DNA of 38,779 nucleotides from Pseudomonadota bacterium (lineage in GTDB: Bacteria; Pseudomonadota; Gammaproteobacteria; SURF-13). The stretch spans positions 1 to 38,779 of the forward strand of contig JAQBXX010000011.1 of the NCBI GenBank assembly GCA_027624315.1, given 5' to 3'. Positions 34,283 through 38,779 of the stretch are shown here, piece by piece (position 1 is the first letter of the stretch; every line of letters starts with the position of its first letter). A program made the translations under genes and the position numbers. The notes beneath the pieces were generated by a model. That model did not search any database and was not told the DNA's origin. It saw only the letters and a program-made list of their open reading frames with translations.

Positions 34283-35719
34283 CTAACCCACACTGCCTTC
34301 AAGCTTGAGGCCAAGAAGCTGGGTGGCCTCGACCGCGAACTCCATGGGCAATTGCATAAAGACATCCTTGCAGAAACCATTGATGATCATCGAAACCGCC
34401 TCTTCTGAACCGATACCGCGGCTGGAGAAATAAAACATCTGGTCCTCACCGATCTTGGAAGTGGTGGCCTCGTGTTCTACCCTGGCGCTGGGGTTGCGCA
34501 CTTCGATATAGGGAAACGTATTGGCCTCGCAGCGCGAACCGATCAGCAGCGAATCGCACTGCGAATGATTGCGCGCACCGTGCGCCGTCGGCGTCATGCG
34601 CACCAGCCCGCGGTAACTGTTACTGGATTCACCCGCCGAGATGCCTTTGCTCACGATGCGGCTCTTCGTATTCTTGCCGATGTGTATCATCTTGGTGCCG
34701 GTGTCGGCCTGCTGCCTGTGGTTGGTGAGCGCCACCGAGTAGAACTCGCCAATCGAGTTATCGCCGAGCAGCACGCAGCTTGGATATTTCCAGGTGATCG
34801 CCGAACCAGTCTCCACCTGGGTCCAGGAAATCTTGGAATTCACGCCACGACACATGCCGCGCTTGGTGACGAAGTTGTAGATGCCGCCCACACCGTTCTC
34901 GTCGCCCGCGTACCAGTTCTGCACCGTCGAGTATTTGATCTCCGCATTATCGAGCGCGACCAGCTCGACGACGGCGGCGTGCAGTTGGTTGGTGTCAAAG
35001 CGCGGCGCAGTGCAGCCCTCCAGATAACTCACGTGGCTGCCCTCCTCCGCAATAATCAGCGTGCGCTCAAACTGGCCGGACTCCTGATTGTTGATGCGGA
35101 AGTAGGTGGACAACTCCATCGGACAGCGCGTGTTTTTCGGGATATAGCAGAACGAGCCGTCGGTGAACACCGCCGAGTTCAGCGCGGCATAGTAGTTGTC
35201 GCCTTGCGGCACCACGCTGCCGAGATATTTCTTCACCAGCTCCGGATGCTCCTGCACCGCCTCGGAAAACGAGCAGAAAATGACGCCGACCTCGGCGAGT
35301 TTTTTCTTGTACGTCGTAGCTACCGATACGGAATCAAATATCACGTCGACCGCCACGTTCGCCAGCGTCTTGCGCTCGTGCATCGGCACGCCGAGCTTCT
35401 CAAATGTGCGCAGCAGTTCCGGATCGACCTCGTCCATGCTGGCGAGCTTTTTTTTCGTCTTGGGCGCGGAGTAATAGACCATGTCCTGAAAATCTATTTT
35501 CGGGTGGTGCACACTCGCCCATTGCGGCTCCTGCAAGGTCAGCCAATGCTTGTGGGCCTTGAGGCGGAACTCGAGCAGCCACTCCGGCTCATTTTTCTTG
35601 GCTGAAATAAGACGGATGGTGTCTTCGCTCAATCCTTTGGGCGCACTGTCGGATTCAACAGGCGTGACGAAGCCTGCCGTGTAGGGCCGATTGATCAGGC
35701 TGTCCAGTGTTGCGCTCAT
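34283..35719 (-). CDS. sufB: Fe-S assembly scaffold SufB
   Basis: SufB is the scaffold on which the cluster forms in SufBC2D. The 478-residue protein has [12 protein letters not shown] near the N-terminus, [26 protein letters not shown] with a conserved cysteine, [13 protein letters not shown], and [12 protein letters not shown]. The C-terminal [20 protein letters not shown] is typical. The ATG has AAGGA about 10 nt upstream. It follows sufA by 128 nt; this gap contains a promoter and two IscR-like boxes, so sufB starts a second transcription unit inside the cluster. Confidence 0.97.
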
Positions 35720-35751
35720 GTCACGCCAAGTCCTTACATTTATTGAGGTTA

Positions 35752-35811
35752 TTAACTGAGTGTTTCAGTAGGTTATTAAAGATACTAAATCCTACTCTTT
35801 TAGTCAAGATT
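35752..35811 (-). promoter_or_regulatory. sufB promoter with two IscR type 1-like boxes
   Basis: On the reverse strand TTGACT (35802-35807) and TATCTT (35779-35784), 17 nt apart, form a promoter. A box at 35787-35811 contains CTTGACTAAAAGAGTAGG and covers the -35. A second at 35752-35776 contains CCTACTGAAACACTCAG and covers the expected start site. Against the E. coli type 1 core YYGACTRWWWYAGTCRR the second box has two mismatches and the first two. IscR loaded with [2Fe-2S] would be expected to repress here. Confidence 0.65.
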
Positions 35812-35847
35812 AACCGGCGTCAGGGGGTCAGGGGTGAGGTCTGAATG

Positions 35848-36171
35848 CTAAACGCTGAAACTTTCACCGCAGCCGCACTGGCCCTTTACCTGCGGATTGG
35901 TGAATTTGAAAACTTCCTTGAATTTATCCCCGGTAAACTCGAGCACCGACCCGTCAATGAAGGGCAGGCTCTTTGCGTCCACCAGCACCTTGGCGCCGTG
36001 CGCTTCAAACAGATGATCATCCGCCTTGATCTCATCGGCGTAATCATAGGTATAGGCCAAGCCCGCGCAACCGACCTGCTTTACCCCCACGCGCAGACCC
36101 ACACCGTTGCCGCGCTTGGCGAGGACGTTCTGGATGTGCCCGGCGGCACTTTCTGTCACTGTAATTGCCAT
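35848..36171 (-). CDS. sufA: A-type Fe-S carrier (SufA/IscA family)
   Basis: A 107-residue HesB-like protein with the three conserved cysteines Cys35 (VGCAGL), Cys99 and Cys101 (GQCGCGESF). A-type carriers deliver Fe-S clusters to apoproteins. The ATG is preceded by AAGGTGG. It follows iscS by 30 nt and is separated from sufB by a promoter region. SufA is the preferred name because of the suf neighbours; IscA cannot be excluded from sequence alone. Confidence 0.9.
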   Translation of the reverse strand: MAITVTESAAGHIQNVLAKRGNGVGLRVGVKQVGCAGLAYTYDYADEIKADDHLFEAHGAKVLVDAKSLPFIDGSVLEFTGDKFKEVFKFTNPQVKGQCGCGESFSV

Positions 36172-36201
36172 GATTCCACCTTAGCTTAACGTCATAAAAA
36201 C

Positions 36202-37341
36202 TTATACTGCGAGTGCGCTACGCCAGGAACGACTGCCCTGCATCAGGCCCGCCAAAACGGTGCAGAACGCATCTACATGCGCCTCGGTGTTGCCCGCGCC
36301 CAGACTCACGCGCAGCACGTTGCCCAGACTCCCGCGCGGTACGCCCATCGCAGTGAGCACATGGCTCGGCGCGATTTCGCCGCTCGAACAGGCCGAACCG
36401 CTGGAGAGTGTGAAACCCGCCTGATCCAGCTTTTCCAGCAGTGTCTCGCCTGTAAATTGCGGCACACTGAACTGCACGGTGTTAGGCAACCGTTCGGCGT
36501 GCTGCGCGAAGGGCGTGATGCCCAGCGCACGCAGGCCCGCCTCCAGCTTGTCACGCAACGCACGCCACTCTGCCGTGCGTGCGCTCAACTCGCGGCGCGC
36601 GAATTCCGCCGCCGCACCGAAACCCACAATGCCCGCGACATTTTCCGTACCGGCGCGCAAGCCTTTTTCCTGGCCGCCGCCCTGCAACAAGGGCTTGAGC
36701 AGCGACGCACGCTCCACCACCAGCGCACCCACCCCCTTGGGACCATTGAGTTTGTGCGCGGCGAGCGTCAGACAGTGCGTACCGCTCGTGGCGAAATCCA
36801 CCGGCACCTTGCCTGCGGCCTGTGTCGCATCGCTGTGAAACAATGCACCGTGTTTGCGTACCCGTTTTGCGATGGCGCGGATATCCTGCAACACGCCGGT
36901 TTCATTGTTCGCCCACATCACCGACACGAGACGCGTATCCGCATGCACATACGGTTCGATGTCAGGCGCAACCCGGCACTGCTCATCCACCGGAATCACA
37001 TCCACCTGCCAGCCACGGTGCTCCAATGACTGCGCTGCACCGCGCACGGAGGCATGTTCAACGGCGCTCACGGCGATGCACGCGGGCGCTTCCTCTTGCA
37101 CCGCGCCCAACAGCGCCAGATGATTCGCCTCGGTGCCACCGCCGGTGAAAATGACCTGCTCGGGCCGCGCATTGACCAGCGCTGCCACCTGTTCGCGCGC
37201 GGCGTTGATCGCCTGACGCGCTGCGCGCCCGAGGTGATGCGTGCTGGATGGATTGCCGTACTGCTGCTTGAGATACGGCAGCATGGCCTCCAGCACACGC
37301 GCATCCAGCGGTGTAGTGGCGTTATGATCCAAATAGATCAT
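36202..37341 (-). CDS. Cysteine desulfurase IscS/NifS (group I)
   Basis: A 379-residue PLP enzyme. [13 protein letters not shown] starts the protein, [11 protein letters not shown] and ANNETG are family motifs, the PLP lysine is in [11 protein letters not shown] near residue 200, and the catalytic cysteine is in [10 protein letters not shown] near residue 320. These are group I (IscS/NifS) features, unlike the group II SufS encoded in the same cluster. Its start overlaps the iscR stop as ATGA, so the two are translationally coupled. Length is shorter than E. coli IscS (about 404) and closer to the NifS-like form. Confidence 0.92.
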
Positions 37342-37829
37342 GCACGCGGATTTTGCGCCGTACTACGTGCGCCATGCATGGCAACGGGGAACTCCACCGC
37401 CTCCTGCCGCGCCGCGACCTCGCGCACGCCCCGCTGCGCGACCAGCTGCGCGAGGGTGATGCTGTTCAGAAACTGGTAAATCTTGCCGCTCAAATCCTGC
37501 CACAGATCGTGCGTGAGACAGCGCTCGTTGCCCTGGCAGTTTTTCTTGCCGCCGCAGCGCGTTGCGTCCACTTTTTCATCCACCGCACTGATCACGTCCG
37601 CGATGGAAATCGTATCCGCCGGGGCGCTCAAACGGTACCCGCCACCGGGCCCGCGCGCACTGATGACCAGCCCCTGCTTGCGCAGCTTGGCGAACAACTG
37701 TTCCAGATAAGAGAGCGAGATGCCCTGACGCCTGGCGATGTCGGTGAGCGAGACCGACCCGTCCGCATGGTGCAGGGCGAGATCGAGCATGGCGGTGACC
37801 GCGTAACGGCCTTTGGTAGTAAGTTTCAT
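37338..37829 (-). CDS. iscR: Fe-S cluster regulator IscR (Rrf2 family)
   Basis: A 163-residue winged-helix regulator, [20 protein letters not shown] at the start, with recognition helix region [18 protein letters not shown] and the RGPGGGYRL wing. The [2Fe-2S] ligands are Cys92, Cys98, Cys104 and His107, at the same positions as in E. coli IscR, so cluster sensing should be intact. It is expected to repress when loaded with a cluster. It lies between cysE and iscS and has an IscR-like box over its own promoter, so autoregulation is likely. Confidence 0.95.
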
Positions 37830-37836
37830 GTCACCT

Positions 37837-37868
37837 AGTCTACATGACCTAGTAAAATAGTCAACTAT
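37837..37868 (-). promoter_or_regulatory. iscR promoter with IscR type 1-like box
   Basis: On the reverse strand TTGACT (37859-37864) and TAGACT (37837-37842) are 16 nt apart. A 25-nt stretch at 37844-37868 begins ATAGTTGACTATTTTACT and matches the E. coli type 1 IscR consensus at 21 of 25 positions by my count. It overlaps the -35 box and the last codons of cysE. The predicted start is almost at the iscR ATG, so the leader would be very short. Confidence 0.6.
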
Positions 37869-38641
37869 TCAGAAGGAGGTTGCTTTGCCTGCGGGTTGTC
37901 GTCCACGGCATAGGTTTCAAGCTGTGGCAGCTTGATGTCTTCCACCTTCCCACCCAGATTTTTGATGGCCGCGCTCATCGCCTCCATTTTAGCGTCCATC
38001 ACATGCACATGATCGAGCAAGGCATCGATGGCGTTCACCACCGGATCGGGCATGTCCTGCGTGGTGCCGTAGGCGTCGAAACCGATCTTCTCGGCGAAGT
38101 CCTTGCGCCGCTGCAACTCGGATGCACTCTGCTTTTTCACCACCCTCCCGGGGATGCCCACCACCGTCGCACCGGGCGGAATATCTTTCACCACCACCGC
38201 GTTGGAGCCGACGCGCGCCCCCTCGCCCAGCGTAATCGGGCCGAGCACCTTGGCGCCCGCGCCCACCACCACGTTATTCATCAGCGTGGGATGGCGCTTG
38301 CCCTTTTGCCAGCTCGTGCCCCCCAGGGTGACGCCCTGGTAGAGTGTGCAATCGTCGCCGATCTCGGCGGTCTCGCCGATCACCACGCCCTGGCCGTGAT
38401 CTATAAAAAAGCGCCGCCCGATGGTGGCGCCGGGGTGAATCTCAATGCCGGTGAGCCAGCGCAGGATAATGGACAGCCAGCGCGCCAGCCATTTCAATCC
38501 CATAAGCCACAAGCGATGATTAACCCGATGCATCAACACTGCATGCAGCCCCGGGTAGGTCGTCAGCACCTCAAAGGTGTTGCGCGCAGCGGGGTCGCGC
38601 TCGAAGATGCAGTCTATGTCTTCCCGAAGTCGTTGAAACAT
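37865..38641 (-). CDS. cysE: Serine O-acetyltransferase
   Basis: CysE makes O-acetylserine, the substrate for cysteine synthesis. The 258-residue protein has the N-terminal helical domain ([24 protein letters not shown]) and a left-handed beta-helix of hexapeptide repeats with [23 protein letters not shown] and [26 protein letters not shown] closes the helix. The C-terminal extension (after about 175) is helical and charged, longer than in some homologues. It is directly upstream of iscR with 35 nt between, so cysteine supply and cysteine desulfuration are genetically linked. Confidence 0.96.
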
Positions 38642-38651
38642 GGTGTCTTTA

Positions 38652-38731
38652 ATTCCCTACTAAATTAATCAACAATAATAGTTTATACCCATTACGCGCG
38701 CTATTATAGACAGGGCGGTTTCAATGACCAA
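38652..38731 (-). promoter_or_regulatory. cysE promoter and downstream IscR type 1-like box
   Basis: On the reverse strand TTGGTC (38726-38731) and a perfect TATAAT (38703-38708) are 17 nt apart, followed by GCGCGCG. Between the expected start and the cysE ATG, 38652-38676 contains ATTGTTGATTAATTTAGTAG and GGAAT, about 21 of 25 positions matching the IscR type 1 consensus by eye. It lies about 20-44 nt downstream of the start site, so repression by roadblock or use of another promoter would be needed. Confidence 0.55.
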
Positions 38732-38735
38732 GTGC

Positions 38736-38757
38736 AAAAAGCGCAGCATGATGCTGC
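38736..38757 (-). terminator. Putative Rho-independent terminator of an upstream minus-strand gene
   Basis: On the reverse strand GCAGC-ATCAT-GCTGC is followed by GC and TTTTT. It lies just before the cysE promoter and would end a gene located beyond the window edge. The stem is short (extendable to 7 bp with a 1-nt loop) and the T tract is only five long. Confidence 0.45.
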
Positions 38758-38779
38758 CTGAAATCAAACGCATCCGGGG

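Follow-up and report, generated by a model that had tools for sequence, protein, structure and literature searches.

Is a gene for serine acetyltransferase, cysE, held under the control of IscR, the iron–sulfur (Fe–S) cluster regulator whose own gene lies next to it? The question is raised by the window, as we call the whole stretch of 38,779 nucleotides analysed here, which corresponds to positions 1–38779 of contig C19 in a genome of 1.43 Mb (G000). No fetched locus runs past 38779, which seems to be the end of the contig. Read along the minus strand, the gene order is cysE, iscR, a gene for an iscS/nifS-type cysteine desulfurase and one for an iscA-type carrier, followed by sufB, sufC, sufD, sufS and sufU (Table 1).

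Table 1. Genes, IscR-type boxes and promoter-related features of the cysE region (positions in the window)
Feature	Position	Strand	Evidence
Type-1 IscR box upstream of cysE (−35 to −11 relative to the ATG)	38652–38676	−	21/25 consensus; 28.4 bits; genome scans
Promoter-like site before cysE, TGGTCA-16-TATAAT	38703–38730	−	promoter scan; −35 inside IS30-type end, −10 outside
End of IS30-family element, at contig end	38714–38779		five further copies in the genome are identical
cysE, serine O-acetyltransferase	37865–38641	−	TIGR01172, 251.4 bits (cut-off 210.65)
Type-1 IscR box before iscR, overlapping the cysE stop codon (37865–37867)	37844–37868	−	21/25 consensus; 32.6 bits
iscR	37338–37829	−	TIGR02010, 209.9 bits (cut-off 207.55)
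iscS/nifS-type cysteine desulfurase, next gene of the run	36202–37341	−	best NCBIfam match NifS, 409 bits (under cut-off 530.75)
iscA-type carrier	35848–36171	−	TIGR00049, 114 bits (cut-off 58.8); TIGR02011 IscA, 134.6 bits (under cut-off 150.6)
IscR box 1 before sufB, on TTGACT-17-TATCTT promoter-like site	35787–35811	−	promoter scan; consensus scan; 20.8 bits
IscR box 2 before sufB, covering the transcription start predicted from TTGACT-17-TATCTT	35752–35776	+	consensus scan; 15.8 bits

The regulator and the gene run

The genome holds a single full-length cysE, a further CysE match being limited to 32% identity over 79 residues. The window IscR retains, by sequence comparison, E43 and the cluster ligands C92, C98, C104 and H107 at the positions they have in E. 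coli; the role of these residues in IscR is stated in the available part of PMC3899308. No second IscR was found in the genome, where the IscR query gave one match at E ≤ 0.001, with three candidates scored. A CymR-like Rrf2 regulator as the binding protein was ruled out by the same single match, at a threshold that a very distant relative could escape.

The end of cysE is separated from iscR by 35 bases. Because of this short gap, and because the iscR box sits on the cysE stop codon, probably the whole of cysE-iscR-iscS-iscA is controlled as one unit, and the cysE box would serve IscR autoregulation as well; cysE, named in the original prediction as the controlled gene, thus keeps its place within a probable target that is wider. 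The position of the iscR box over the stop codon is kept in two related genomes, G001 and G003, together with a TAGACT hexamer 7 bases before the iscR ATG. The predicted iscR start site falls on or beside the iscR ATG (37829–37868), which would give a possibly leaderless iscR mRNA, and this layout, too, is kept in G001 and G003. As a start at the iscR promoter leaves almost no leader, iscR may either be leaderless or be translated from the cysE transcript, and the box before cysE would thereby belong to the autoregulation of IscR.

Specificity of the box before cysE

The boxes were first counted against the consensus ATASYYGACTRWWWYAGTCRRSTAT, which we take to be that of type-1 IscR sites. When the window was scanned with it, the cysE and iscR boxes shared the best score, ahead of the sufB boxes, with 20 and 19 matching positions, and of the next sites, with 18. 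The original prediction had put a box with about 21 of 25 matches at this very place, and both its coordinates and its count were right, with the box on the minus strand.

A matrix was also built from 96 boxes that precede iscR genes in relatives, with no cysE site included; because the training boxes were chosen by the same consensus (at least 19/25), it is not independent of it. With this matrix the cysE box reached 28.5 bits (28.4 bits when the window's own iscR box was left out), and the strongest site elsewhere in the window, with the iscR and sufB boxes also set aside, had 3.8 bits. When each of the 96 iscR boxes was scored with itself left out of the matrix, 39% came to no more than 28.5 bits, the median of the boxes being 29.3. 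The number of sites of at least 28 bits expected per whole genome is about 1e-4 (independent bases at window composition), or 0.012 at 65% AT.

Two patterns were then run over the genome with up to three mismatches, one drawn up with knowledge of the sites in the window and the other derived from the training matrix. The first gave four matches, namely the iscR box, the cysE box, sufB box 1 and a site on contig C23 (14965–14989, or 2466–2490 of locus L188); the second gave these four and one more, of 7.5 bits, on contig C3. Both reversed-pattern controls gave no match in this genome, and sufB box 2 was missed by both patterns at three mismatches. The C23 site is a 25.8-bit IscR box starting 71 bases upstream of the ATG of a gene for a YfhL-type 4Fe-4S ferredoxin of 86 residues (137 bits, cut-off 86); box and ferredoxin gene lie downstream of an open reading frame read as serS. 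The C3 match aside, all pattern matches other than that of cysE precede Fe–S genes, and cysE itself precedes iscR.

The cysE site therefore combines a near-consensus, nearly palindromic sequence of 25 bp with an IscR that carries its cluster ligands and with a place just before cysE, the next gene being iscR. A chance match as the account of the box was rejected on the strength of the matrix, the shuffles (see below) and the genome scans. What the sequences show is a box that is specific on the scale of the genome, an intact IscR, the order of the genes and a recurrence in other loci; the cysE box is very probably an IscR operator.

The box in the family and across the class

Four of the five other family genomes have CysE, which was not found in G005 (76% complete). 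At the place of the cysE box, G004 scores 29.9 bits, G003 12.6, G001 1.9 (4.5 at its best upstream site) and G002 −2.0, so that, with the window genome counted in, the box is kept in three of five cysE-bearing genomes, weakly in G003, and is lacking in G001 and G002. The former belongs to the same genus as the window genome and still has iscR adjoining cysE. The CysE of G002 is 95% identical, and its cysE is followed by kdsD-type genes (read from open reading frames), without iscR beside it; iscR was not found in this assembly (97% complete), where a contig end interrupts sufB, and loss of IscR is a conceivable reason for the missing box. In the fourth genome, G004, a box before iscR was not seen (best −16.2 bits), so that its cysE box would serve both genes, and a perfect TATAAT stands just 3′ of this box, in a TTGTTG-17-TATAAT arrangement that ends 5 bases before the ATG.

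For the class-wide survey, 177 loci were narrowed to 144 that differ from one another and have a usable start for CysE or IscR; 124 of these had a CysE start, and 123 had at least 60 bases upstream of it. Only identical sequences were removed, and close kin remain, such as the tubeworm-symbiont loci L072, L077, L080, L083 and L084 among the positives; the aligned CysE start is in some loci not a start codon, and distances there are approximate. At least 17 bits were reached by 15 of the 123 cysE loci, against 0.01 expected from 24,600 dinucleotide shuffles, and by 2 of 474 control regions before other long open reading frames, some of them perhaps spurious (L099, before iscS, and L023). In L099, around position 958, iscS directly follows cysE with a 33-bit box between them, and iscR was not found in the 4.6-kb contig.

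At 15 bits after rounding the number of cysE loci is 16 of 123 (counting L030 at 14.97); the box is oriented with the gene in 13 of these 16 and iscR is adjacent in 15. A named isolate that carries the box is Sedimenticola hydrogenitrophicus (L060). By the original prediction, the box should not lack all conservation where cysE and iscR adjoin, and within the family it does not: the four genomes of this kind give 29.9, 28.5, 12.6 and at most 4.5 bits. Across the class, however, among the 113 loci with both genes on the same strand and a gap below 2500 bases, only 15 reach 15 bits and 98 stay below. The 15 loci with a cysE box of at least 15 bits and a visible iscR comprise 12 with both boxes and three (G004, L008 and L017) in which the cysE region alone reaches 15 bits, their iscR regions scoring −16, −20 and 5 bits. 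A trade-off between the two boxes as a general rule was ruled out, both being present in 12 of these 15 loci and an iscR box in 73 of the 98 loci without a cysE box. A quick CysE tree, with 51 of 120 inner branches weak, gives about ten changes in the state of the box, which thus seems to have been repeatedly gained and lost. Five loci from purple sulfur bacteria (L092, L096, L104, L107 and L108) carry a divergent iscR box of the TTAATTGATC...GGTA type, with 5–17 bits by the 96-box matrix, and their IscR may prefer a shifted motif.

A predicted promoter at the end of an insertion element

Three sigma-70-like sites, one each before cysE, iscR and sufB, were found in positions 35500–38779, against 0.9 expected. 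As had been predicted originally, the cysE box lies downstream of the best predicted promoter, the TGGTCA-16-TATAAT site read from 38730 to 38703; by eye, only weak alternatives that the box might overlap can be seen, such as a second −10, TATTAT, at 38680–38675. The −35 hexamer of the best site falls within the end of an IS30-family element, of which only 66 bases are present beside cysE before the sequence stops. The same stretch recurs at four other contig ends and once internally on contig C15 (L194, 1180–2303), where the full copy has an open frame for a 356-residue IS30 transposase (NF033563, 293 bits, cut-off 80) and terminal inverted repeats of 24 nt with 79% complementarity. It is absent from G001–G004, and a plasmid search with the element-end peptide gave no match.

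Since the terminal repeat supplies the −35 and the flank the −10, this promoter would be an IS30/flank hybrid, and the "best promoter" before cysE is probably a fusion of the element's end with a −10 of the flanking DNA. The aligned flank reads TAGAAT in G002 and G003, at the end of trmJ. The window genome has trmJ on contig C8, which ends in the opposite end of this element, with trmJ about 1 kb away; the element probably breaks the assembly, and one copy of it possibly sits between trmJ and cysE.

How the box may act, and what else it could be

These findings are best explained by an IscR-type operator that governs cysE and iscR jointly, a reading we consider probable. We infer binding, repression, read-through and the mode of blocking as follows. 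[2Fe-2S] IscR would bind the type-1 operator in the 5′ region of the cysE-iscR-iscS-iscA unit, and the bound holo-IscR would lower the transcription of cysE and, by read-through, that of iscR, iscS and iscA. When Fe–S clusters are short, IscR would lose its cluster and leave the operator, so that O-acetylserine, the cysteine precursor, and the Fe–S assembly genes would rise together. If cysE is transcribed from about 38696, as the predicted hybrid promoter suggests, IscR would occupy positions of about +20 to +44 and form a roadblock; alternatively, it might cover the second weak −10. Three observations count against this reading, namely the two family genomes without the box, the 98 of 113 adjacent loci that stay below 15 bits, and the position of the box 3′ of the best predicted promoter. 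The claim of IscR control made originally holds up on one side, with an IscR-type box before the only full-length cysE, a single IscR match and recurrence in gammaproteobacteria including E. coli, and is weakened on the other by the two family genomes without the box, one of which (G001) has iscR adjacent.

The absence of the box in G001 and G002 would also be accounted for if it were a relic: the IS30-type insertion would have given cysE a new promoter, and the operator would no longer matter and would be decaying, as in these two sister genomes. That the predicted promoter takes its −35 from the element's end, with the box some 20–44 bases downstream of the predicted start, speaks for such a history, but the box of the window genome lies near the median of the iscR boxes and far above its sisters in score, and we regard a relic as unlikely. 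The box could instead form the −35 region of a second, near-leaderless cysE promoter, at which IscR would block the binding of polymerase, the upstream promoter being minor. The arrangement in G004, with its perfect TATAAT just 3′ of the box, is of this kind, and so is the TAGACT found by the iscR box, 7 bases before the iscR ATG, in the window and in G001 and G003; the hexamer in the window, however, is TTAAAG, with three of six positions by eye, and was not listed by the promoter scan, which makes this version rather improbable. Mere similarity by chance, with no binding of IscR, could be argued from the four positions of 25 that depart from the consensus, but against the 1e-4 to 1e-2 such sites expected per genome, the empty reversed controls and the recurrence in relatives it has very little probability left.

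Relation to known systems

In E. coli, holo-IscR represses iscRSUA, erpA and nfuA, according to the available text of PMC10117729. The 96-box matrix gives 33.3 and 32.1 bits for the E. coli iscR sites, 34.6 for nfuA and 18.4 for erpA. These operators have the same 25-bp motif as the cysE box, and that of nfuA is likewise near the ATG (−37); they differ in that the target in the window is cysE, at the head of a run with iscR, and not an Fe–S carrier. The cysE gene of E. coli K-12 itself has a type-1 box of 27.1 bits, 184 bases before the gene (L196 4723–4747, NC_000913.3), which, unlike that of the window, lies inside gpsA, with cysE far from iscR. The letters of this E. coli box do not seem to be widely conserved: they were found at three mismatches in 2 of 369 class genomes, taken without regard to how many are enteric, and by tblastn cysE was not found in either of the matching 3-kb loci.

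The thought that IscR and cysE may be connected is not new, since a Yersinia study searched for the type I motif upstream of cysE (PMC8262890); the predicted type I sites had no significant ChIP peaks reported in the available part of that paper. Beyond this motif search we recognised no literature on IscR control of cysE, within a coverage that takes in the original IscR papers in part. In Pseudomonas aeruginosa the isc promoter has a pair of type-1 sites, 68% and 76% identical to the consensus, which are taken as sites of repression by [2Fe-2S]-IscR (PMC3899308, as far as available); as printed there they score 15.4 and 27.3 bits with the 96-box matrix. They are type-1 sites as in the window, but stand before iscR, and cysE goes unmentioned in that paper.

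Other systems tie cysE to iron or to Fe–S assembly by different routes. The small RNA RyhB represses the translation of E. coli cysE when iron is short (PMC12889586 and PMC11584013, both available in part), which likewise connects cysE with iron status, at the level of translation and through a small RNA; de-repression by loss of holo-IscR would run opposite to it in sign. CysE1 of the NIF system, a serine acetyltransferase, has been proposed in the accessible text of PMC6006210 to raise the cysteine pool for Fe–S assembly; it is a dedicated nif paralog, whereas the window cysE is the sole full-length copy of its genome. In mercury-treated E. coli, as described in the available portion of PMC5769350, the isc genes rise strongly, and cysE alone is up among thiol and sulfur genes that are mostly down or unchanged, a suggestive response that fits IscR control without showing it.

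What the wiring would mean

As a wider interpretation, offered tentatively and with less than even confidence, cysE may have been drawn under IscR more than once, in several gammaproteobacterial lineages, as the lead gene of a unit that IscR autoregulates. The level of IscR would then be set through cysE in G004, L008 and L017, the operator in the window would have outlived the replacement of its promoter by the IS30 hybrid, persisting as a downstream roadblock, and the direction of control (a rise of cysE under cluster shortage) would be the reverse of that by RyhB. The interesting part is the recurrence together with the autoregulation that places cysE first, the box of the window being a further case of a known control. 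Loci with the box before both genes, before cysE only, or with the box lost form a natural series in which the wiring can be tested. If cysE is indeed under IscR, as is probable for this bacterium, one cluster sensor would set the assembly machine and also the supply of cysteine, from which the IscS- and SufS-type desulfurases take their sulfur, and the wiring between cysE and IscR would have arisen or been lost repeatedly.
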